Below are positions 1-14,852 of a stretch of DNA of 34,084 nt, piece by piece. Each line of letters opens with the position of its first letter. Position 1 is the stretch's first letter. Origin of the DNA: a virus; IMG/VR virus record IMGVR_UViG_3300042922_000343, positions 1 to 34,084 of that record; one strand, written 5' to 3'. The notes under the pieces are model-generated. The model ran no database searches. It saw only the letters and a program-made list of their open reading frames with translations, and was not told the DNA's origin. Position numbers and translations under genes: made by a program.

Positions 1-3000
1 GAGCAGGAACAGGCCGCAGGTCTGGAGGCCGTTGGGACCGGATTCAATGGGGATGAAGGGAGCAAGGCTATTAGTCAATCTAGGACCTCGCAGGAAGCGG
101 GTATCGGGTCAGGTAAAGATGGGTTGACAAAGGCGGAAGCACCGAAAGCAGAAGCAACAAAGCAAGCCGCAGGAAAATCGGAGCCGCCGAAACAGGCACC
201 GGCAAAGAGTTTTGGTAAGAGTGCCTATGATAAGGGCAAGGGAAGCTATCGAAAGCTTCCTCAGGATCCATCCGTCGTTTATGGTAAGAATTTTGAAGGA
301 ACGATCGTTCCCATCTGTGATATCATTGCGGAGATTGGTGAGGTTGTCATACGTGGCAAGCTGATTAAGCCGGATACGCGAACCATCGGAAATGAAAAAA
401 GCATTATTACCTTTGTTATGACGGATTATACTGATTCCATTAAGGTCAAGCTGTATGCTAAGACAATTGAAGTCGATGAAATTACCTCGTTATTAAAACC
501 GGGCGGATTCTTTTCTTTAAAGGGAATCGCCCAGAATGACACCTATGAGAGAGATATTACCATTGGTTCTGTTGTGGGAATTAAGACAATCAGTGATTTC
601 TTAAGTAATTCGAGAAATGATAATGCCTCTGCTAAGCGTGTGGAGCTCCATGCCCATACGATGATGAGTGATATGGATTCAGTAGTTGATGTAAAGAAAA
701 TGGTGAAGCGTGCCTTTAAATGGGGACATTCGGCCATCGCGATAACGGACCATGGTGTAGTACAAGCCTTTCCGGATGCCAGTCATGCCATTAATCCAAA
801 GGATTATGCGGACGAAGAGGAGCAGAAGCGAGCGAAGAATTTCAAGGTGATCTATGGAATGGAAGCCTATCTCGTGGATGACCTCAAAGAGGTTGTTACT
901 AATGCGAAGGGACAGAGTCTTGATGATGCCTTTGTAGTGTTTGATATTGAGACCACCGGCTTTAGCCAGACTAATGACCGTATTATTGAAATCGGTGCAG
1001 TGAAGGTAAAGAACGGAGAGATTACGGATCGTTACAGTACCTTCGTCAATCCGGAGATTCCGATACCCTATGAGATTGAACAGCTGACCTCGATTAATGA
1101 CAATATGGTGATTGATTCGCCAACCATAGATCTAATCCTGCCTGAGTTCCTGGCCTTTTGCGAGGGCTGTAGTCTAGTTGCCCATAATGCTTCCTTTGAT
1201 GTGGGCTTTATCAATAAAAATGCGTCAAGAATAGGAATTGAAATCGAGTATACGGTAATCGATACCGTTGGTCTATCCCGTATTCTATTACCGGAGTTAA
1301 GCAGGCATAAATTAAACCTGGTCGCAAAGGCGCTTAATATCTCCTTGGAGAATCACCACCGGGCAGTGGATGATGCAGGAGCGACGGCTGAGATATTCTT
1401 AAAGTTCGTTACAATGTTGAAAGCTCGTGAGATTAATAGAGTGGATGAGATTGACAAGCTGGGCAAGATGAGTGCGGAGGCGATTCGAAAGCTTCCTGCT
1501 TACCATGCGATCCTACTGGCTGCCAGTGATGTGGGAAGAGTTAATCTTTATAAGATGGTATCCTTATCCCATATTGAGTATTATAATAAACGTCCAAAGA
1601 TACCGAAGAGTCTCCTGATGGAATGCAGAGAAGGGATTATTCTGGGTTCTGCCTGTGAAGCAGGCGAGGTCTTCCAAGCTGTTTTGACCAATAAGTCCCA
1701 TGAGCAGATCGCCAGGCTGGTGGATTTCTATGATTATCTTGAAATTCAGCCCTTGTGTAATAATGAATTCTTAATTCGCAGCGAACGAAGCGATGATAAG
1801 GACATTAATACAAAGGAAGATTTGATGGAGCTAAATCGCAGAATTGTCGCTCTGGGAGAAGAATACAATAAGCCCGTAGTAGCTACCTGTGACGTTCATT
1901 TTCTGGATCCGGAGGACGAGGTATACCGTAGGATTATTCTTGCCGGTAAAGGCTTTAAGGATGCGGATGAACAAGCTGCTTTATATCTTCGTACCACGGA
2001 AGAGATGCTTGAGGAATTCTCTTATCTGGGCAGAGCGAAGGCAGAAGAGGTTGTTATCACAAATAGTAATCTGATCGCAGATCGGATAGAGAAAATATCC
2101 CCTGTGAGACCGGATAAATGTCCTCCGGTACTGCCTAATTCGGAAGAAAACCTACGTAATATCTGTTACGATAAGGCACATTCCATGTATGGTGAACCCC
2201 TTCCCGCACCGGTAGAGGCCCGACTGGAGCATGAGCTGAAATCAATTATCAATAATGGTTTTGCGGTTATGTATATCATCGCTCAAAAGCTGGTATGGAA
2301 ATCGAACGAGGATGGCTACCTGGTAGGTTCCCGTGGTTCCGTTGGATCCTCCTTCGTAGCAACAATGGCCGGTATCACGGAGGTTAATCCTTTGGCGCCC
2401 CATTATTACTGTCTAAATTGTCACTATTCTGATTTTGATTCAGAGGAGGTTAAGAAATACGGTGGCAGCTCCGGCTGCGATATGCCAGACCGCAATTGTC
2501 CGGTCTGTGGACAGCCTATGGAGAAGGACGGTCATGATATTCCCTTCGAAACCTTCCTAGGCTTCTATGGTGATAAGGAGCCGGATATCGACTTAAACTT
2601 CTCGGGTGAATATCAGAGTAAGGCACATGATTATACGGAGGTTCTATTTGGCACCGGACACACCTTCCGTGCCGGTACGATCGGTACCTTGGCGGATAAG
2701 ACAGCATTTGGTTACGTGAAGAACTATTATGAAGAGCGCGGGATCCATAAGAGAAATGTGGAGATTGATCGTATCGTAGATGGCTGCGTAGGTGTCAGAA
2801 GAACTACCGGACAGCATCCGGGAGGTATCGTAGTATTGCCTCATGGTGAGAATATCTATTCCTTTACCCCTGTACAGCGTCCGGCAAATGATATGACGAC
2901 GAAGACCATTACCACCCATTTTGATTACCATTCCATTGATCATAATTTATTAAAGCTGGATATTCTTGGCCACGACGATCCGACGATGATTCGTATGCTG

Positions 3001-4017
3001 GAGGATCTGACCGGACTGAATGCCCAGAAGATCCGGTTGGACGATGAGAAGGTACTATCCTTATTCCATGATACCAAGGCCCTTGGCATCGCACCGAAGG
3101 ATATCGACGGTTGTGAGCTGGGCTGTCTTGGTATTCCGGAGTTTGGTACCGATTTCGTTATGCAGATGGTGAAGGATACCCAGCCAAAGTCCTTCTCTGA
3201 TCTGGTTCGTATCTCCGGTCTGTCCCATGGTACGGACGTATGGCTGAACAATGCTCAGACACTGATTCAGAATGAGAAATGCACCCTGTCTACCGCGATC
3301 TGTACCCGTGATGATATTATGATCTTCTTGATTGCGACCGGTGTAGAGCCCGGCCAATCCTTTAAGATTATGGAAAGTGTACGTAAAGGAAAGGGCTTAA
3401 CTCCGGAGATGGAACAGGCGATGGTAGCAGCAGGAGTACCGGATTGGTATATCTGGTCTTGTAAGCAGATTAAGTACATGTTCCCGAAAGCCCATGCAGC
3501 AGCATATGTTATGATGGCCTTTCGTATTGCATTCTTTAAGGTATATTATCCGTTGGCCTATTATGCAGCATATTTCTCCATCCGTGCGTCTGCCTTTAAT
3601 TATGAGCTGATGTGTCTCGGCAGAAATGTACTGGAACAGCATATTGCAGATTATAAGAAGCGCAGTAATACCTTAACCAAGAAGGAGCAGGATACCTTCA
3701 AGGATATGAGAATTGTACAGGAGATGTATGCACGTGGCTTTCAGTTTTTACCGATTGATATATATAATGCGAAGGCTCACGCCTTCCAGATCATCGATGA
3801 TAAATTGATGCCTTCCTTAAGTACCATAGACGGACTTGGTGATAAAGCTGCTGATGCGGTTGTGGAGGCTGCGAAACAGGGTCCCTTCCTGTCGAGGGAT
3901 GATTTTAAGATTCGTTGTAAGGTAAGCTCGACAGTGGTAGACAACATGGCGAAGATGGGATTGTTTGGAGAGCTTCCAGCCTCCAATCAGATGTCCTTAA
4001 TGGATTTTCTGTCTTAG
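1..4017 (+). CDS. polC: DNA polymerase III alpha subunit, PolC type (5' end cut by window)
   Basis: Replicative DNA polymerase of low-GC Gram-positive bacteria; copies the chromosome and proofreads its own errors. The frame is open from base 1 without a credible start: the TTG at 124 lies in a low-complexity Lys/Ala/Pro linker and the family is about 1,430-1,460 aa, so roughly 100 N-terminal residues lie outside the window. Seen in order: an OB-like segment, the start of the PHP domain (HTMMSDMDSVVD, about 650-690), an inserted DEDD 3'-5' exonuclease (VFDIETTGF, about 940; HNASFDVGFI, about 1190), resumption of PHP, a four-cysteine zinc finger (CLNCH...CPVCG, about 2410-2510), and the polymerase core with GSRGSVGSS (about 2320) and the catalytic PDIDLNFSG (about 2583). 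It ends with TAG at 4015. Base composition is clearly more GC-rich than the phage DNA to its right. Host core gene; identification is very safe. Confidence 0.98.
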   Translation, partial: EQEQAAGLEAVGTGFNGDEGSKAISQSRTSQEAGIGSGKDGLTKAEAPKAEATKQAAGKSEPPKQAPAKSFGKSAYDKGKGSYRKLPQDPSVVYGKNFEGTIVPICDIIAEIGEVVIRGKLIKPDTRTIGNEKSIITFVMTDYTDSIKVKLYAKTIEVDEITSLLKPGGFFSLKGIAQNDTYERDITIGSVVGIKTISDFLSNSRNDNASAKRVELHAHTMMSDMDSVVDVKKMVKRAFKWGHSAIAITDHGVVQAFPDASHAINPKDYADEEEQKRAKNFKVIYGMEAYLVDDLKEVVTNAKGQSLDDAFVVFDIETTGFSQTNDRIIEIGAVKVKNGEITDRYSTFVNPEIPIPYEIEQLTSINDNMVIDSPTIDLILPEFLAFCEGCSLVAHNASFDVGFINKNASRIGIEIEYTVIDTVGLSRILLPELSRHKLNLVAKALNISLENHHRAVDDAGATAEIFLKFVTMLKAREINRVDEIDKLGKMSAEAIRKLPAYHAILLAASDVGRVNLYKMVSLSHIEYYNKRPKIPKSLLMECREGIILGSACEAGEVFQAVLTNKSHEQIARLVDFYDYLEIQPLCNNEFLIRSERSDDKDINTKEDLMELNRRIVALGEEYNKPVVATCDVHFLDPEDEVYRRIILAGKGFKDADEQAALYLRTTEEMLEEFSYLGRAKAEEVVITNSNLIADRIEKISPVRPDKCPPVLPNSEENLRNICYDKAHSMYGEPLPAPVEARLEHELKSIINNGFAVMYIIAQKLVWKSNEDGYLVGSRGSVGSSFVATMAGITEVNPLAPHYYCLNCHYSDFDSEEVKKYGGSSGCDMPDRNCPVCGQPMEKDGHDIPFETFLGFYGDKEPDIDLNFSGEYQSKAHDYTEVLFGTGHTFRAGTIGTLADKTAFGYVKNYYEERGIHKRNVEIDRIVDGCVGVRRTTGQHPGGIVVLPHGENIYSFTPVQRPANDMTTKTITTHFDYHSIDHNLLKLDILGHDDPTMIRMLEDLTGLNAQKIRLDDEKVLSLFHDTKALGIAPKDIDGCELGCLGIPEFGTDFVMQMVKDTQPKSFSDLVRISGLSHGTDVWLNNAQTLIQNEKCTLSTAICTRDDIMIFLIATGVEPGQSFKIMESVRKGKGLTPEMEQAMVAAGVPDWYIWSCKQIKYMFPKAHAAAYVMMAFRIAFFKVYYPLAYYAAYFSIRASAFNYELMCLGRNVLEQHIADYKKRSNTLTKKEQDTFKDMRIVQEMYARGFQFLPIDIYNAKAHAFQIIDDKLMPSLSTIDGLGDKAADAVVEAAKQGPFLSRDDFKIRCKVSSTVVDNMAKMGLFGELPASNQMSLMDFLS

Positions 4018-4126
4018 GGTTATATTCTGTATCATGTAATCGTATAGGTAGAGATGTACAAATTGACAAAAAGTTGATTGTAAGGTTTTGACACTCTAAT
4101 CAATTTTGAGGTTGATGCTTTGATTT

Positions 4127-4197
4127 GCTGATGCCAGAATATTTGATCCTTTTACTTTGTAGCAAAGGACTAGAGTTTTCTGGTGTCAGCTTTTTTT
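4127..4197 (+). terminator. Long terminator-like hairpin after polC
   Basis: A 13-pair stem with several wobbles or mismatches (GCTGATGCCAGAA 4127-4139 with TTCTGGTGTCAGC 4178-4190) encloses a second stem (CCTTT 4148-4152 with AAAGG 4164-4168) and runs into seven T. It most simply ends the polC transcript. Because it sits about 60 nt before the likely exporter start it could also act as an attenuator of that gene. Confidence 0.7.
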
Positions 4198-4255
4198 GTT
4201 TTTTGAAAGTAATTTACATAAAAATCCCATTAGTGGAATAGAAGTGGTGGTTGTT

Positions 4256-4867
4256 ATGATAATTAAGGGGTTTCGTTTTGGGATTCTGCTTCAGTTAGCG
4301 GTTGGTCCAATGTGTTTACTGGTATTTAATACTTCTGCTTCAGAGGGATTATTATCCGGGATTATTCTTGTCTCTGCCATTACCTTCGTTGATGGTCTCT
4401 ATATACTGTTATCCGGTCTTGGTGTCGCAGCAATTATGAAAAACATTCAGATTCAAAGGATCATAAAGCTTTTTGGATGTGTTATTTTGATGCTGTTCGG
4501 CATAAGTATGATAACCGGAGTTCTTGGGATGCATCTGCTACCATCCATTTCCCTGTTTCCAGCAGAGAAACAGGAGAATATCTTTCTTAAAGGATTGCTC
4601 CTAACAGGTTCGAATCCACTTACAATTCTTTTTTGGAGCAGTGTATTCTCAACCCAGGTTATTCAATATAAGTTGAATAAACTTCAGCTGTTCTACTTTG
4701 GCTTTGGATGTATCCTATCGACCATAAGCTTTCTTAGCATTATAGCAATACTAGGTACCATAGTCAGTAGATTTCTGCCGAAGAGTATCATGAATGGTAT
4801 GAATATCGTAGTAGGAGTATTATTAATATTATTTGGAATTAAACTGGTATTTTCAAAGAAAGAATGA
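4256..4867 (+). CDS. LysE/RhtB-family amino-acid exporter
   Basis: Predicted inner-membrane exporter of the LysE superfamily (203 aa from the ATG chosen here), a family that exports amino acids or other small solutes. The protein is mostly hydrophobic, with about five to six membrane spans, and starts in the family style: a short polar N-terminus, then FGILLQLAVGPMCLLVFNTS, matching the conserved GPxxLxVxxxS signature of helix 1; a LLTGSNPLTILFW segment mid-protein matches the family's second NP(x)xxxFW motif. A longer reading from TTG at 4196 starts in the terminator T-tract and is unlikely; ATG 4256 follows a GTGGTGG purine stretch. The substrate cannot be told from sequence. Stands alone between the polC terminator and tRNA-Glu. 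Confidence 0.85.
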   Translation: MIIKGFRFGILLQLAVGPMCLLVFNTSASEGLLSGIILVSAITFVDGLYILLSGLGVAAIMKNIQIQRIIKLFGCVILMLFGISMITGVLGMHLLPSISLFPAEKQENIFLKGLLLTGSNPLTILFWSSVFSTQVIQYKLNKLQLFYFGFGCILSTISFLSIIAILGTIVSRFLPKSIMNGMNIVVGVLLILFGIKLVFSKKE

Positions 4868-5066
4868 GTTAATTGGGCGATTAGCTAGCTTATATTATGG
4901 TAATGAAAATGATTATAATGAAATGGATCGACTTATAATGGTTAAAAGGTAAATTCTACCACGTTATTTTACATAAGAGCGATAGTGCCAAATATATTTG
5001 ATATCGTCATTATTAACGAAATGTATCAATTGGTAAAACAATTCGAAAAAATAATGAAAAAAGGGC

Positions 5067-5095
5067 TTGCTTTTTTCTTTGTTATAGTATAGAAT
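5067..5095 (+). promoter_or_regulatory. Probable promoter of tRNA-Glu
   Basis: TTGCTT (5067-5072), 17-bp spacer, TAGAAT (5090-5095), about 15 bp before the tRNA. The preceding 200 bp after the exporter gene (4868-5066) is AT-rich and shows nothing else I can name. Confidence 0.5.
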
Positions 5096-5110
5096 AAATA
5101 TTGTTCTTGA

Positions 5111-5182
5111 GGCTCGTTGGTCAAGGGGTCAAGACGCCGCCCTCTCACGGCGGAAACAGGGGTTCGATTCCCCTACGAGCTG
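5111..5182 (+). tRNA. tRNA-Glu (anticodon CTC)
   Basis: Full cloverleaf: acceptor GGCTCGT/ACGAGCT with a terminal G-U pair, anticodon stem CCGCC/GGCGG around loop CTCTCAC (anticodon CTC, reads GAG), T-stem AGGGG/CCCCT around TTCGATT. CCA is not encoded. tRNA genes are common phage attachment sites, and phage-like sequence begins immediately after it. Confidence 0.95.
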
Positions 5183-5365
5183 CTATAAAGCCTTGTAAAT
5201 AAGGCGTTACAGAAAAGAGTCAATCAAGACTCAATCAACAATCCAATCAAACAAGTGTTTGTAATAAACGCAAGTACAAAGGAGTGTTACAAATAATCTA
5301 CATTATGGGACAACCCATAAGAAAGGAGGATTTGTACGCTAGACAAATTAATATGTAAAAAATAA
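5183..5365 (+). other. tRNA-adjacent non-coding stretch with phased CAATCAA repeats (candidate attL arm)
   Basis: CAATCAA occurs three times (5221, 5232, 5244), spaced 11 and 12 bp, about one helical turn, which resembles integrase arm-type sites beside an attachment core in the tRNA 3' end. A ribosome-binding-like GGAGG at about 5326 is followed only by stops, so no protein is predicted. AAATAAGGCGTTA (5197-5209) recurs at 9615-9627. The attachment role is inference; no second core copy can be seen. Confidence 0.35.
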
Positions 5366-5392
5366 AACACAGTCAATCTGGCTGTGTTTTTT
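5366..5392 (+). terminator. Rho-independent terminator
   Basis: AACACAG (5366-5372) pairs with CTGTGTT (5382-5388), followed by a T run. Would end a transcript that starts at tRNA-Glu. The 200 bp that follow (to 5593) hold one TTGACGGC word at 5452 and no gene. Confidence 0.8.
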
Positions 5393-5593
5393 GTTGTGAA
5401 AATTTATACTGTGTAGCTTTGAATTTTAGCCTAGGAGCAATCACAATCCATTTGACGGCGGTTTATATGTTTAAGTGGGAAGTTGGCTAGAAATTGATTT
5501 TAGAGCGTTGGTGTCAATAGAAGTTGTTTTACATACTCTATTGTAAATATTGGCGAATTATGGTAGTATCTGGGTGGAAGGGAGGAAGCTGAT

Positions 5594-10184: not shown

Positions 10185-10790
10185 ATGAGCGATATTATTA
10201 ATATAGATAGTGGAAATGACAATTTTGAGCAACCAACCGTCAAAGGAAAACGCAACAGGGATAAGTCAACCTATGCATTGTCTGGTAAGTCCAAGGACCC
10301 TGATAAAGAAGCCAAGAAAGCAGAGTTATTCAAAAGGTTAACGGAGTTACATTTAAAACAGGGAATCCCGAAATTTTCAACCGTGGATGAAATGTCGTTG
10401 TTGATTGAGGAATATTTTGTTGATTGTACAGAGTTTCAATTACGTCCTACTGTTAGGGGATTGGCTCTTGCATTAGGAACCGTTTATGATACTTTAAATG
10501 GGTGGGAAAGAGGCGAAAGAGACGCACAACTCGGCTCTTCCTGTTCCGCAATAATAAAAAAAGCTAAGCAATTAATAGCCGAATATGACGAGGTTATGGC
10601 CCTAGAGGGCTATGATAATCCAATACTTTTTATGTTCCGCGCAAAGAATTATTATGGTATGCAGGATAAGCAAGAAGTCGTTATTCAGGGAAATCAGTCA
10701 CTAGGAGAGTCATTGACCGCTGAAGAGATCGCAAAGCGTGTAGGGTTGCCGGATAATCACGGGGCTATAGATGTGGAGTGGAAAGAATAA
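10185..10790 (+). CDS. terS: Terminase small subunit
   Basis: DNA-recognition subunit of the packaging motor; it would bind phage DNA and hand it to the large subunit. 201 aa. After a charged N-terminus, residues about 60-130 hold a helix-turn-helix (STVDEMSLLIEEYF ... RPTVRGLALALGTVYDTLNGW), and residues 130-175 the family-typical AIIKKAKQLIAEYDEVMALEGYDN and FRAKNYYGMQDKQE, as in the gp3-like small terminases of Siphoviridae. A strong GGAGTG site precedes ATG 10185. Unusually, its partner TerL lies 7 kb downstream. An ACCGTCAA word is at 10236. The identification rests on motif resemblance, not on a search. Confidence 0.8.
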   Translation: MSDIINIDSGNDNFEQPTVKGKRNRDKSTYALSGKSKDPDKEAKKAELFKRLTELHLKQGIPKFSTVDEMSLLIEEYFVDCTEFQLRPTVRGLALALGTVYDTLNGWERGERDAQLGSSCSAIIKKAKQLIAEYDEVMALEGYDNPILFMFRAKNYYGMQDKQEVVIQGNQSLGESLTAEEIAKRVGLPDNHGAIDVEWKE

Positions 10791-10821
10791 ATGATAATTA
10801 CATATTTGACGGTATAAAAAT

Positions 10822-10848
10822 AGCCTGGATGATGAGTCCAGGCTTTAT
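10822..10848. terminator. Bidirectional terminator between converging genes
   Basis: AGCCTGGA (10822-10829) pairs with TCCAGGCT (10837-10844), followed by T-rich sequence on the plus side and preceded by AAAAATA, giving a T-run on the minus side. It lies between terS and the inverted recombinase gene and can serve both. Confidence 0.85.
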
Positions 10849-10861
10849 TATTGCGATAATG

Positions 10862-11425
10862 CTATTTTATTTTATTCTCATGTTCTTTTATTAGTTTATC
10901 CAAAGTAACCCTTGATATATTTAACTCTGCAGCTAGCTTTGGTTTGCTTATTTCTCGCTTCATATAGCGATCATAGTGCTTTCCGAATTCCGGTATGTTA
11001 ACTTCTTTACGGCCTTTATACTTTCCTTCCTTGACGGCGATAGCGATCCCTTCACGTTGACGCTCTAACATATTGGTACGCTCAAATTCATTAATTGCGC
11101 CTATCATGGTAAGCATGAGTTTTCCTGTTGGTGTTGATGTATCGATGTTCTCCTTGTTACTAACCAGGTGAATGCCTTTTTTATTTAGTTTCTCAACGAT
11201 CTCTAGTAAATCCTTTGTGCTTCTTGCTAATCTGCTGAAATCATGAATATATATTGTATCACCTTCACGGGCAAACTCTAACATTGCGGTTAATTGCGGT
11301 CTGTCTGTGTTCTTGGCCGATACCTTTTCTGTGAACCACTTATCAATATTGTGTTTCTTCAATCCTTCAAGCTGCCTTGCTTCGTTCTGCTCTACTGTAG
11401 ATACTCTTACATATGCTATCCTCAT
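10862..11425 (-). CDS. Serine recombinase (resolvase/invertase type)
   Basis: Site-specific DNA recombinase of 187 aa. The catalytic N-terminal domain begins MRIAYVRVSTVEQNEARQL, with Arg7 and nucleophile Ser9, and continues through the active-site arginine region (YIHDFSRLARSTKDLLEIVE) and the long E-helix (IGAINEFERTNMLERQREGI). A short C-terminal helix-turn-helix (KPKLAAELNISRVTLDKLI) completes it. At this length it is a small Pin/Hin/resolvase enzyme, not a large serine integrase, so it is unlikely to integrate the phage. Start ATG 11425 follows GAGG. It is inverted relative to all neighbours and has its own promoter, typical of a cargo gene that can be expressed in the lysogen. Possible roles are dimer resolution or inversion of a DNA switch; no flanking inverted sites were found. 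Confidence 0.92.
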   Translation of the reverse strand: MRIAYVRVSTVEQNEARQLEGLKKHNIDKWFTEKVSAKNTDRPQLTAMLEFAREGDTIYIHDFSRLARSTKDLLEIVEKLNKKGIHLVSNKENIDTSTPTGKLMLTMIGAINEFERTNMLERQREGIAIAVKEGKYKGRKEVNIPEFGKHYDRYMKREISKPKLAAELNISRVTLDKLIKEHENKIK

Positions 11426-11467
11426 ATTAATAACCTCGCTTTCATTGAATGATTACTGATTACCTAT

Positions 11468-11496
11468 ATAATAGCATTATGTATATTATAAGTCAA
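11468..11496 (-). promoter_or_regulatory. Promoter of the serine recombinase
   Basis: Minus strand: TTGACT (11491-11496), 17-bp spacer, TATTAT (11468-11473), about 43 bp before the ATG. A good vegetative promoter. Confidence 0.75.
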
Positions 11497-11499
11497 GGA

Positions 11500-11817
11500 C
11501 TAAATAAACATATTGTAAAATAAATAACATTAATAACTTTATATATACAGTTATTATCTAGTCTAATCATGTTTAACTAGATAGTGGTCTATTTTTACAT
11601 ATATATTCGTGATTTATACATCATTACCCCGGGTAGGGGTCTACAGAGAACACCCCCGGGTGAGTATAGTCACCCCCTCAAATTCCGAAAATTACAAAAA
11701 AGCCTTCTTCGCTATGGATACCACTATTCTAAAATTCCGCAAAATCAAAAAAGAGATTCCCTCTCAACCCGAATAATCCGCTTAAAATGATACCTTAAAA
11801 TAATCCCACATGGTAAC
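11500..11817. other. Non-coding block with a GC-rich repeat (cos/pac candidate)
   Basis: No gene found. At 11626-11681 an isolated GC-rich island holds two copies of a CCCCGGGT core (11626-11634 and 11652-11661), a possible stem GGGGT (11636-11640) with ACCCC (11652-11656), and a further CACCCCCTC; purine-rich AT sequence follows. Such abrupt C-rich/A-rich junctions near small-terminase genes remind me of cohesive-end regions, but the 68-codon open stretch through it has no ribosome binding site. The role is a guess. Confidence 0.3.
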
Positions 11818-11985: not shown

Positions 11986-12207
11986 ATGAAGTTTTGCTTC
12001 GGCGACATTGTAGTCGTAGATGAAATTAATATTGGAGTCATAGTGAAAAGCTGGGCAGGAAAGAATCCAAGCCATGATGTCTATGTACGGATGTATAACG
12101 GGATTAAGAATTATCCTGAGGATACTATTCAACGATATATGGTAAGGCATAAATACTTGAATGAAGAGGAAATCGAGTATCAGAACAATGCCGTCAATGG
12201 ATTATAG
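11986..12207 (+). CDS. Small phage protein, 73 aa, unknown
   Basis: First gene of a three-gene operon with two others on the same strand; GGAGG lies eight bases before ATG 11986. The N-terminal half (FGDIVVVDEINIGVIVKSW) reads like a small beta-barrel of the KOW/SH3 kind, followed by a helical, acidic C-terminus. No catalytic residues stand out. Its place ahead of a predicted anti-defence gene suggests either a regulator or another counter-defence factor, which is inference only. Confidence 0.7.
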   Translation: MKFCFGDIVVVDEINIGVIVKSWAGKNPSHDVYVRMYNGIKNYPEDTIQRYMVRHKYLNEEEIEYQNNAVNGL

Positions 12208-12222
12208 AGGGAGGGGTTAATC

Positions 12223-12405
12223 ATGGAAACAACGGGAATTAATTACGAAGCGCAATGTCAGGAATTGCAAGCAAGACTTAAACACGAAAAGGACAGATCA
12301 GATGCTCATATTGCTGAACTGGTTGACAGGCTACAAGGATATGAGAAGGAAAATGAAATTTTACGGGCTAAATTATCAGTGGTTGAAATGATATTTGGAA
12401 AATAA
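12223..12405 (+). CDS. Small coiled-coil phage protein, 60 aa
   Basis: Starts at ATG 12223 after GGGAGGGG. Almost the whole product is one amphipathic helix (EAQCQELQARLKHEKDRSDA, then HIAELVDRLQGYEKENEILR) with leucine-rich heptads, so it should form a parallel coiled coil. No other domain. Role unknown; such small proteins may bind a partner encoded nearby. Confidence 0.7.
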   Translation: METTGINYEAQCQELQARLKHEKDRSDAHIAELVDRLQGYEKENEILRAKLSVVEMIFGK

Positions 12406-12426
12406 TTAAACATTGGAGGAATTGCC

Positions 12427-12795
12427 ATGAGAGAATTAAGCACTATTCAGAAAAGAGAAAAATTAAACAGGGTATTTGCAATCGATGAATCAGGCAACGG
12501 CGGAGCTAATCACGCATATGTGGTTGTATCTGATGTCGGCTTGATGGTACCTAAAGAAACCGTTATCCAGTTTCAAAACGGAGCAAGAAAAGAAGAATTA
12601 ACGTCTATTCCCGGAGTTCTCGATACCGACCTACTTGAAATCGTCCGTGACAGATTAAAAGGTTTTCAATCCGGTCAATTTGCAACCAGAGAAAATGCAA
12701 TTGCATTAACTCATATCGAAGAAGCTTTGATGTGGATGAACCGCAGAGTTGAAGATCGCATCGAAAGAAATGTACTTGGAACTAATCAGAAATAG
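12427..12795 (+). CDS. tad1: Tad1-like anti-defence protein (cyclic nucleotide sponge)
   Basis: 122 aa. The C-terminal half is the Acb2/Tad1 hairpin domain: [20 protein letters not shown], then [20 protein letters not shown] and [13 protein letters not shown] (residues 68-122). The N-terminal half ([22 protein letters not shown], residues 28-56) adds the beta-rich part that marks Tad1 rather than the all-helical Acb2. Family members sequester signalling nucleotides (gcADPR isomers of Thoeris; some also bind CBASS cyclic oligonucleotides) without cutting them, so the effector is never switched on. GGAGG precedes ATG 12427. The gene closes an operon with its own promoter and is followed directly by the structured RNA region. 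The assignment is from recalled family motifs; the ligand cannot be predicted from sequence alone. Confidence 0.77.
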
Positions 12796-12895
12796 TCATA
12801 TCCCCTATCAATATCTCAGGAAGCGCGAGAAGTTAAGTAGTGTGAACGGTCACATCGGCTGATGATAAGAGGGATGTTGGTGGGGTTGATATAAA

Positions 12896-13003
12896 TGGAA
12901 CGTAGCATAATGGTAATGCACTGCCCCGGCTACGGGCGCGTAATTGGTTCGAGTCCATTAATCACAGGTGTGATAATATGCAGGTTCGACCCCTGCCGTT
13001 CCA
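12896..13003 (+). tRNA. tRNA-like element with two T-arms in tandem
   Basis: Acceptor TGGAACG (12896-12902) pairs perfectly with CGTTCCA (12997-13003). D-arm GCAT-AATGGTA-ATGC (12905-12919). Anticodon arm TGCCC/GGGCG (12922-12938) around CGGCTAC; reading the middle as GCT would mean Ser, but position 33 is G instead of T, so decoding is doubtful. A T-arm-like stem with TTCGAGT (12943-12959, one mismatch) follows at normal distance, and a second, perfect T-arm GCAGG-TTCGACC-CCTGC (12980-12996) precedes the acceptor. Between them, ATCAC and GTGAT form a further hairpin. Either a mosaic of two tRNAs or a tRNA-like domain of the large RNA. Confidence 0.55.
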
Positions 13004-13473
13004 ATCATCTTCTTCATCATTTTGTGTTCTCCTTTTGTGGGTGAGAATCCCACGTTGTGCTGACCGATTGGCGGTTATGGCGGTTCAATTCCGTCCGGTG
13101 CAGTTTCGGTTTACAATCGCTATGAAAGATTTGAATTGCTTCGTTTTCACGATGTATAAAATTTTTGGATGAGTGGTTAACCGATTGTGGAAGAGGTCTG
13201 AAAGAGCGATGATGTGTAACATTATTGCGGCGGCTACATAGGAAGCAGACCATAGTACCGTGAACTGTGTGGGTCTATTCGGTACGGACAGTGGGAGAGA
13301 CTACTATTCTTGCAAGAATATGCTTGTCGGAGCAACTAAACCGAACGGGAACTAGCATACTTCCTTGAATGTCGAAAGACGTATGTCGTTGCGCTATCTG
13401 GCTGCTGAACTTTTGTCGCAGGATTTCATGGGTGTCCGATTCACCCAGGCGCATTACATAAATTAGCACTTCA

Positions 13474-13505
13474 TTGACAGCATGTTTTGAAATAAATTTT
13501 ATAAT
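13474..13505 (+). promoter_or_regulatory. Possible promoter before the phosphoesterase operon
   Basis: TTGACA (13474-13479) and TATAAT (13500-13505) are both perfect consensus boxes, but the 20-bp spacer is longer than normal and the -10 box overlaps a candidate RNA stem. Weakly supported. Confidence 0.3.
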
Positions 13506-13529
13506 CTATCCCAAGAAAGATGGTGAACC

Positions 13530-14852
13530 ATGCAAAAAATACATATTCCTGAAGAAGTCAAACAAAAATGTGTTGAGATGATGGAGGCTGGCAATTCTCC
13601 AATCTACATATATGAGAATTATTATCGTGGTAAATCCAATATGAACTACGATACGTTCAATCGGGCCTTGAGAAAATGGAGAAGCCGGATTAATGGTACG
13701 GAAACGGCAACCGCAAAAAATACCGTCAAGGAGAATATATCCCATGATGGAATTCCTCGCACTAAGTCAGTCGATTATAAAGCCGATGGGTCCGCAACCT
13801 TCGAGGGAATTATTGAACTGATGGAAGGCGATCCGATTACTCCGGATATTATCATGGAGGCACACAACCTGGATAGTGATAAGTGGGATGTAATCTCGCA
13901 TAAAAGTAATTTCTGGCAAGCCCAAAAAAAAGGAGGTAACACACTTCTTCTTTATCAGAGTAAAATTTCCGTGAGACCGAAGAAAGAAGAAATTACATTA
14001 CAGGAACTTCAAAGACATTTTGAGACTTTTTCAAAGGAATATAAACCAGAGTACATAACTCCTAGTCCAAAAATTGAAAGTCAAAAAATGCTCGAGGTAA
14101 ATATCTGTGATCTTCATCTTGCAAAGCTTGGATGGCATAGGGAATGCGGTGAAAATTATGATAGCAAGATAGCCAGAAGCCGATTCATGGAAGTCATTGA
14201 TGGCGAATGCAGACGGCTAGAGAGCATTCCGGTAGAGAAAATATTATTTGTTTGGTGTAACGACTTTTTCAACAGCGATAATATGGCAAGCACTACGACC
14301 GGAGGCACACCACAGAACACGGATGTAAGATGGCAGAAGATGTTTTTAACAGGTGTTGAAATGTTAGTGGAGGCTATTGATAAACTACAGCATTATGCCC
14401 CCGTTGAGACTTTCTATATTGCATCAAATCATTGCCGAACTACTGAATTTTACGCTATTAACTATCTATTTGCATGGTTCAGAGATAACGAGCGTGTAAA
14501 AATAGATATCAATTGCAAGGCAAGATATTACTATCAATATGGCGTTAATCTGATTGGATTTAGTCATAGTTATTATGAGAAGAAAGAAAATCTTCCTGGA
14601 TTAATGAGTGTTGAAGTGCCTGAAATGTGGGTTAATACAACTTATAGGGAATACCATTTAGCACACATTCACTGTGAAGAAGTAAAAGAAAAGAACGGAA
14701 TTATATTCCGATGGCTGCCTAGTGTCACCGGAAGTGATGCATGGCATTATGATAGTGGGTACATCGGAGCTACAAAACGAAGTTATTCGTTCTTATGGGA
14801 CAAGGAACACAAATTGGAAAGTATCAATGTGATACATACGGAGTTGAGTTAA
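13530..14852 (+). CDS. Metallophosphoesterase-like phage protein, 440 aa
   Basis: A calcineurin-like phosphoesterase by its ordered metal-ligand motifs: DLH (about residue 194), ND (about 244, replacing the usual GD), NH (about 300, the GNH motif as SNHC), SHS (about 345) and HIH (about 379). The first 170 residues are a separate, charged domain that begins like a helix-turn-helix (EEVKQKCVEMMEAGNSPIYI) and may bind DNA. Related phage proteins are often annotated as Mre11/SbcD-like nucleases, but the substitution of glycine in two motifs leaves activity uncertain. It opens a run of closely spaced genes leading to TerL. The ribosome binding site before ATG 13530 is weak (AAAGATGGTG). It overlaps the homing endonuclease start by one base. 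Confidence 0.75.
   Translation: MQKIHIPEEVKQKCVEMMEAGNSPIYIYENYYRGKSNMNYDTFNRALRKWRSRINGTETATAKNTVKENISHDGIPRTKSVDYKADGSATFEGIIELMEGDPITPDIIMEAHNLDSDKWDVISHKSNFWQAQKKGGNTLLLYQSKISVRPKKEEITLQELQRHFETFSKEYKPEYITPSPKIESQKMLEVNICDLHLAKLGWHRECGENYDSKIARSRFMEVIDGECRRLESIPVEKILFVWCNDFFNSDNMASTTTGGTPQNTDVRWQKMFLTGVEMLVEAIDKLQHYAPVETFYIASNHCRTTEFYAINYLFAWFRDNERVKIDINCKARYYYQYGVNLIGFSHSYYEKKENLPGLMSVEVPEMWVNTTYREYHLAHIHCEEVKEKNGIIFRWLPSVTGSDAWHYDSGYIGATKRSYSFLWDKEHKLESINVIHTELS

Follow-up and report, generated by a model that had tools for sequence, protein, structure and literature searches.

A probable array of non-canonical tRNA-like elements between a Tad1-like gene and a phosphoesterase gene of a viral contig

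The interval between the Tad1/Acb2-like gene and the metallophosphoesterase gene of a viral contig probably carries, on its plus strand, an array of separate, non-canonical tRNA-like elements together with one pseudoknotted RNA domain. The array is recognisable by its sequence, its predicted folds, compensatory changes and its recurrence in several phages. That the interval is a cluster of small RNAs which copy both ends of a tRNA without a working anticodon, and not an RNA of the ROOL/GOLLD kind, is moderately well supported.

The window, the entire stretch of 34,084 nucleotides that was analysed, is a viral contig (34 kb) from IMG/VR. The interval (12797-13529) is flanked by a gene for a protein of 122 aa with the Acb2/Tad1 hairpin domain (PF24729, E=1.1e-7) and a gene for a protein of 440 aa that belongs to the phage 'DNA repair exonuclease' family (phrog_704, E=5e-71). 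The initial annotation had seen no plausible protein between these two genes, and this holds: no conserved protein was found in the interval. Its three ORFs (64-78 aa) have no genuine protein relatives, and the only match, of the minus-strand orfC, mirrors the conserved RNA block. A coding function of the interval was thus rejected.

Standard tRNA finders and Rfam overlook elements of this kind: with default settings, ARAGORN calls no normal tRNA inside the interval, and cmscan of the interval against Rfam 15 finds no family at the gathering cutoff. At E<=5 (12000-14400), Rfam returns, besides two snoRNA matches that are due to chance, only a tRNA below threshold at 12903-12959, whose 18.1 bits are the best tRNA score in the interval (cutoff 29). 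At the DNA level, relatives of the interval among annotated phages and plasmids are restricted to short tRNA-arm matches.

The only normal tRNA of the window is a tRNA-Glu (5111-5183). It is part of a left end (124-5183) that also has a PolC-type DNA polymerase III alpha gene and a LysE-type gene and resembles a host chromosome; the record may therefore comprise a prophage and adjoining DNA of its host. A reading of the interval as attP was rejected: no copy of at least 12 bases of the tRNA-Glu region is present elsewhere in the window, and an attP would leave the compensatory changes described below unexplained.

The features of the array and its surroundings are the following (L-numbers are our labels for other loci; R1 is a covariance model, see below):

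12798-12892, plus strand: hairpin of 95 nt with an imperfect stem of about 20 bp at the 5' end of the interval (fold z=-3.13)
12896-13003, plus strand: oversized tRNA-like element of 108 nt (descriptor scans, MFE, ARAGORN with introns, topology of L050)
13037-13053, plus strand: T-arm-like hairpin GTGGG-TGAGAAT-CCCAC without acceptor partner (T-arm scan)
13056-13102, plus strand: short tRNA-like element of 47 nt, weaker (R1 17.8 bits, E=0.15 in 746 kb)
13247-13285, plus strand: H-type pseudoknot of the initial annotation (complementarity in the sequence, counterpart in relatives not seen)
13321-13387, plus strand: pseudoknotted domain that abuts the 64-nt element (pairs kept in L091, two-sided changes)
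13390-13453, plus strand: D-arm-less tRNA-like element of 64 nt (length kept in relatives, pairing, compensatory changes)
13474-13481, plus strand: TTGACAGC motif just 3' of the array and outside the RNA (enriched in the window, L087 and L115)

The 64-nt element and the adjoining pseudoknotted domain

Related loci were reached by several routes. L087 was found by terminase similarity (68% identity); its matching interval is upstream of a homologous phosphoesterase gene and includes a block of 115 nt that is 86% identical to window 13370-13482. A motif from this block led to a third phage, L091, whose phosphoesterase belongs to a different family (17% identity), and a covariance model built from the conserved block (R1) indicated a fourth phage, L115. 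Two bacterial pattern matches, L092 and L093, were discarded, as both apparently represent one conserved, unrelated protein-coding gene. Among the Tad1-linked loci that were screened for homologues, only L050 has a comparable element.

The element at 13390-13453 consists of an acceptor stem of 6 bp (13390-13395/13448-13453), the linker ATCTGG, a 4 bp helix (CTGC/GCAG) that closes a 12-nt loop, and a T-arm (13430-13446); a D-arm is absent. It is exactly 64 nt long in the window, in L087 (6702-6765) and in L091 (3234-3297, minus strand), and the fold is common to all three phages: the linker between the 6 bp acceptor and the 4 bp helix, whose loop has 12 nt, always ends in GG, and the T-loop of the T-arm is canonical or nearly so. 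Across the three sequences, 97.8% of the 45 cells are paired, in comparison to 29-56% in slid-partner controls. Three pairs show two-sided changes (acceptor pair 4 and T-arm pairs 43-55 and 44-54), and the one broken cell is the T-arm pair 42-56 of L091. The observed pair count was reached by 22 of 500 shuffles and, with three sequences of high similarity, the covariation is suggestive and not conclusive.

R1, built from the block of the 64-nt element and run over 746 kb, found beyond its training set a weak match 5' of the L115 phosphoesterase gene (2174-2249, 20.3 bits, E=0.028) and a second element of 64 nt in L091 (3554-3617, 20.0 bits); over 536 kb of other phosphoesterase-linked loci it had no match.

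The pseudoknotted domain (13321-13387) aligns with L091 3332-3462 (minus strand) and has 18 pairs in four helices: H1 (13327-13330/13341-13344) with an invariant 10-nt loop (AGCAACTAAA), H2 (13347-13351/13361-13365), H3 (13371-13373/13378-13380) with a GAAA loop, and a loop-strand pseudoknot helix (13355-13360/13381-13386). H3 is the GAAA-capped stem at 13371-13380 that had already been noticed in the initial annotation. In the two sequences available, window and L091, all 35 scorable cells are paired (one pair is unscorable in L091, due to a gap) and three pairs have two-sided changes, while slid controls pair at 19-39%; the pair count was matched by 61 of 500 shuffles. L091 carries an insertion of about 65 nt at the position of the window's GAAA tetraloop, as would be expected of an RNA that tolerates the growth of a peripheral hairpin. 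Judged by eye, L087 has an analogous complementarity between loop and strand (GATACG...CGTATC) of different sequence.

The oversized element, its counterpart in L050 and minor elements

The 108-nt element has an acceptor stem with 7 of 7 bp (12896-12902/12997-13003), a D-arm of 4 bp (12905-12919, GCAT-AATGGTA-ATGC) and a T-arm of 5 bp (12980-12996, GCAGG-TTCGACC-CCTGC), and three hairpins (12922-12940, 12945-12957 and 12961-12974) replace the anticodon arm; its MFE structure is a cloverleaf of six helices. If introns are allowed, ARAGORN makes a forced 'tRNA-Val' call with an insert (12896-13004), and a 7-nt loop (CGGCTAC) can be drawn, yet position 33 is a G.

A counterpart is found in L050, an unrelated phage that was reached only via its Tad1-like neighbour gene. 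The L050 element (2154-2265, 112 nt) matches the topology of the 108-nt element and shares little sequence outside the positions typical of tRNAs: it has a 7 bp hairpin whose 1-nt bulge is the same as in the window, another whose loop measures 7 nt, and one more that precedes the T-arm. Of the shuffled middles, 0.7% (window) and 1.5% (L050) gave three simple hairpins of which the first had a helix of 7 bp or more, by a shape criterion set after both elements had been seen; automatic alignment of the two forms (n=2) breaks the first hairpin. The L050 element starts 6 nt past a promoter match (TTGAAC-17-TATAAT) and is followed by a 9 bp terminator match at 2278-2301 (two terminators found, 0.1 expected), and it is absent from L201, the closest relative of L050 with a 93% identical Tad1. 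With these matches and this absence, the L050 element looks like an independent, insertable small-RNA gene and not like a decaying tRNA. Around the window array, no promoter or terminator was recognised.

These data also bear on the possibility that the elements are relics: tRNA genes in decay that remain from a tRNA cluster of an ancestral phage or from a recombination with tRNA genes of the host. Arrays of tRNAs in phages are fluid, and the array of L087, with a tRNA-Asn, a tRNA with defective anticodon stem and a tRNA-Tyr-like element with a 12-nt anticodon loop, resembles a gradient of decay. However, decay should not spare the acceptor and T-arm with compensating pair changes, and neither the exact length of 64 nt in three phages nor the position of the L050 element between promoter and terminator matches is expected from it; we consider an origin as relics improbable.

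Unusual tRNAs that still decode, either after removal of the inserts (a short intron with ligation) or with the loop used unchanged, are highly improbable. ARAGORN proposes inserts of 34 nt (window), 23 nt (L050) and 5 nt (L087), and in Dulem virus 39, a phage less closely related, an RtcB ligase is encoded near the terminase. Removal of the inserts, however, leaves no normal 7-nt loop with U33, and in the 64-nt element the loop is 12 nt long and the D-arm is missing. RtcB is absent from the records of the window, L087, L091, L050 and others, which are possibly fragments; RtcB-linked splicing was rejected on these related records. In the circular genome of Dulem virus 39 (L094, PP511791.1), which has several tRNAs, the gene for the RtcB tRNA ligase (10460-11665) is located just 5' of the terminase.

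The MFE structure of the weaker 47-nt element has an acceptor, a small D-like hairpin and a T-arm (GGCGG-TTCAATT-CCGTC) and lacks an anticodon arm. Four of the six T-arm-like hairpins of the window (both strands, 68 kb) are inside the 709-nt interval and a fifth belongs to the tRNA-Glu. A strict search for an acceptor with T-arm across phage sequences totalling 845 kb, excluding matches that overlap normal tRNAs and with none expected in shuffles, found two matches each in the window, L087 and L091 and one in L038. The scan for oversized D-armed elements (1.40 Mb) found only the window, L050 and L091 and nothing in three shuffles, and strict descriptor scans had no matches in shuffles of 0.85-1.4 Mb. 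The hairpin at 12798-12892 was equalled in stability by 1 of 200 shuffles; no relative of it was found in L087, L091 or L115 and its membership in the array is thus uncertain.

The L038 match is a tRNA-like element of 66 nt (1514-1579) among 14 normal phage tRNAs, in which CACC-TAAA-GGTG replaces the anticodon arm. The descriptor scan of phosphoesterase-linked loci returned only L133, which has a tRNA-Leu-like element (3135-3251) 5' of the phosphoesterase gene, with an anticodon loop of about 47 nt closed by a 6 bp stem (CTAGTC/GACTGG); L084 may have a related oddity at the same position, and both cases were judged by eye.

One large RNA or separate elements

Initially, the region had been annotated as a single structured RNA of about 700 nt and candidate of the ROOL/GOLLD type. 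Neither part of this proposal is supported: cmscan was negative for ROOL and GOLLD at the gathering cutoff over the whole window and at E<=5 over 12000-14400, with no Rfam match to them in the relatives L087, L091 and L115 either, and the MFE of 12797-13505 (709 nt) is no better than that of dinucleotide-shuffled sequences, of which 16 out of 20 were equally stable or more so (z=+0.65). The minus strand of the interval has z=+0.36, and 13240-13453 also folds no better than shuffles (z=+0.92). Group I and group II intron models had no match (Rfam, gathering cutoff and E<=5), and both the tmRNA search of ARAGORN and Rfam were negative for tmRNA.

The interval had further been described as packed with complementary segments. 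The named segments are indeed present on the plus strand; folded as one RNA, the interval is not exceptionally stable. The H-type pseudoknot has its complementarity (AGACC/GGTCT at 13247-13251/13272-13276 and GTACCG/CGGTAC at 13255-13260/13280-13285), and the palindrome at 13305-13320 exists in the sequence without counterpart in L091. The 10 bp closing pair (13155-13164/13494-13503) is complementary but consists entirely of A/T and is missing from the matching flank of L087; its segment overlaps sequence downstream of a TTGACA box/TTGACAGC. A conserved long-range closing helix of a fold of several hundred nucleotides was not found in the relatives. Covariation, proposed earlier as a check, was seen as compensatory changes in two separate local domains. 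What remains correct of the earlier view is a structured noncoding phage RNA with tRNA connections, in the form of local tRNA-like and pseudoknot domains.

A giant ornate RNA of the ROOL/GOLLD kind that has diverged beyond Rfam, with the tRNA-like elements as its modules, would be consistent with the phage location, the tRNA association and the structured look; moreover, the linker of GOLLD can contain tRNAs (PMC12286853), and the regions of L087 and L091 beat shuffles in folding (z -2.85 and -2.46). Against it stand the silence of Rfam, the fold of the interval, the unconserved closing helix and the variation in order, number and spacing of the elements among L087, L091 and L115. What is conserved comes as short, individually separable units (47-108 nt) that vary between phages in number, order and type. 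This fits poorly with a single giant scaffold, and we regard such an RNA as very improbable.

The octamer TTGACAGC is enriched on both strands in this phage group, with 5 copies in the window (7749, 8540, 9952, 13474 and 17523; 0.88 expected), 12 in L087 (0.44 expected) and 6 in L115 (0.12 expected). In the phage group it is perhaps a promoter or operator element, and the copy at 13474-13481 is probably a promoter or regulatory site of the downstream gene.

Possible roles of the array and likeness to known systems

A canonical 7-nt anticodon loop with U33 on a 5 bp stem is absent from the 64-nt, 108-nt and 47-nt elements, while the array does have acceptor stems that stack on a T-arm whose loop is of the TTCRANY form. 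As no element of the window has a normal anticodon loop, decoding is unlikely. The half of a tRNA that consists of acceptor and T-arm is what RNase P, 3'-processing and CCA-adding enzymes recognise, and its retention favours processed, non-decoding mimics. The array as a whole is thus quite possibly, if tentatively, a source of such mimics directed against host tRNA-binding factors. Some array members may still decode, since L087 holds a normal tRNA-Asn next to a tRNA with a defective stem.

From these features we infer transcription, processing, a binding partner and a counter-defence role, in a scheme that is doubtful when taken as a whole. The array would be transcribed with the neighbouring genes, or from a promoter of its own as in L050; RNase P, 3' tRNA processing and the CCA-adding enzyme, by recognition of the top half, would excise and finish the elements; the products would be stable tRNA mimics unable to decode, and these would occupy proteins of the host that bind tRNA, with tRNA-targeting defence nucleases as the most plausible candidates. 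The Tad1/Acb2-like neighbour gene suggests a counter-defence setting, and phage tRNAs have been proposed to evade anticodon nucleases via altered anticodon loops (PMC10264068).

The elements might instead act mainly as tRNA-like punctuation, that is as sites of RNase P and 3' processing at which a long phage transcript is cut. The distance from the end of the last tRNA-like element to the phosphoesterase start is 64-112 nt in each of the four related loci, every element keeps only the top half, which suffices for RNase P-type recognition, and the pseudoknotted domain adjoins the 64-nt element. On the other hand, parts outside the top half (TCTGGCTGCTGAAC and GCAGGATTTCA) are strongly conserved, although they are not needed for processing, and the L050 element stands alone with its promoter and terminator matches. 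We think such punctuation unlikely; in it, the pseudoknotted domain would be released between the cuts and the phosphoesterase mRNA would gain a defined 5' end.

If the reading as non-decoding mimics is correct, the elements could define a new class of anticodon-less phage tRNA mimics (the 64-nt form with pseudoknot and the form of about 110 nt with three extra arms), encoded by small-RNA genes and serving either to decoy tRNA-targeting immunity or to regulate the translation apparatus of the host; this is a speculative and rather unlikely proposal. Why phages carry tRNAs is a long-standing question, and current ideas presume decoding: elements that do not decode and whose acceptor and T-arm are kept by compensation would mean that phages also select tRNA mimicry itself, and a decoy or regulatory role would be directly testable with short, defined RNAs. 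No description of anticodon-less or extra-armed phage tRNA-like elements was found in the open-access literature that was searched; subscription papers were mostly outside this scope and we claim no priority.

Several known systems resemble the array in part. Compared to a canonical tRNA, the array has the acceptor/T-arm half, lacks the anticodon features and stays below the thresholds of ARAGORN and Rfam. The tRNA-like domain of tmRNA has an acceptor and T-arm, a stemless D region with a GG pair and pseudoknots nearby. The array is similar in its acceptor and T-arm, its stemless D region with GG and its nearby pseudoknot, but it has no tag reading frame, and its pseudoknot is 5' of the tRNA-like domain and not inside. 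Bacterial Y RNAs (YrlA) carry a tRNA-like module and are, like the array, small RNAs of bacteria or phages that naturally mimic a tRNA; a Ro60/Y RNA reading was rejected, as the TROVE domain (PF05731) is absent from six records, including the window, and Rfam had no match.

D-arm-less mitochondrial tRNAs (PMC12221289) are likewise cloverleaves of about 64 nt without D-arm, whereas the 64-nt element is encoded by a phage in a bacterial context, and a 12-nt loop on a 4 bp stem takes the place of the 7-nt anticodon loop. Phage tRNA arrays with altered anticodons, for which a link to tRNA-targeting defence has been proposed (van den Berg et al. 2023, PMC10264068), are also phage-encoded with intact tRNA ends and a changed anticodon region. 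They have point mutations in otherwise normal tRNAs, while the elements of the window array have a replaced or enlarged anticodon arm or none at all, can lack the D-arm and are unlikely to decode. GOLLD and ROOL, which assemble into nanocage multimers, are noncoding, structured, phage-encoded and tRNA-associated too (PMC12286853); the array, known here from sequence and predicted fold, has no covariance-model match and is not one giant fold, and its conserved parts are small tRNA-like units.

Other RNAs were observed in the same loci. L087 has two near-threshold matches to the type-P5 twister ribozyme (600-657 and 916-969; 34.1 and 35.3 bits, cutoff 37.6, E ~1e-3). At the end of the L091 contig, an IscB-like gene with its HEARO (omega) RNA (144.9 bits) at 4101-5557 (minus strand) adjoins a fragment of a Tad1-like gene, which it apparently interrupts. 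L082 has, beside a tRNA-Thr and 5' of its phosphoesterase gene, a long, noncoding and apparently structured stretch (3212-3740) that has no Rfam match and contains a perfect 12 bp pair (TGAAATTACATC/GATGTAATTTCA).
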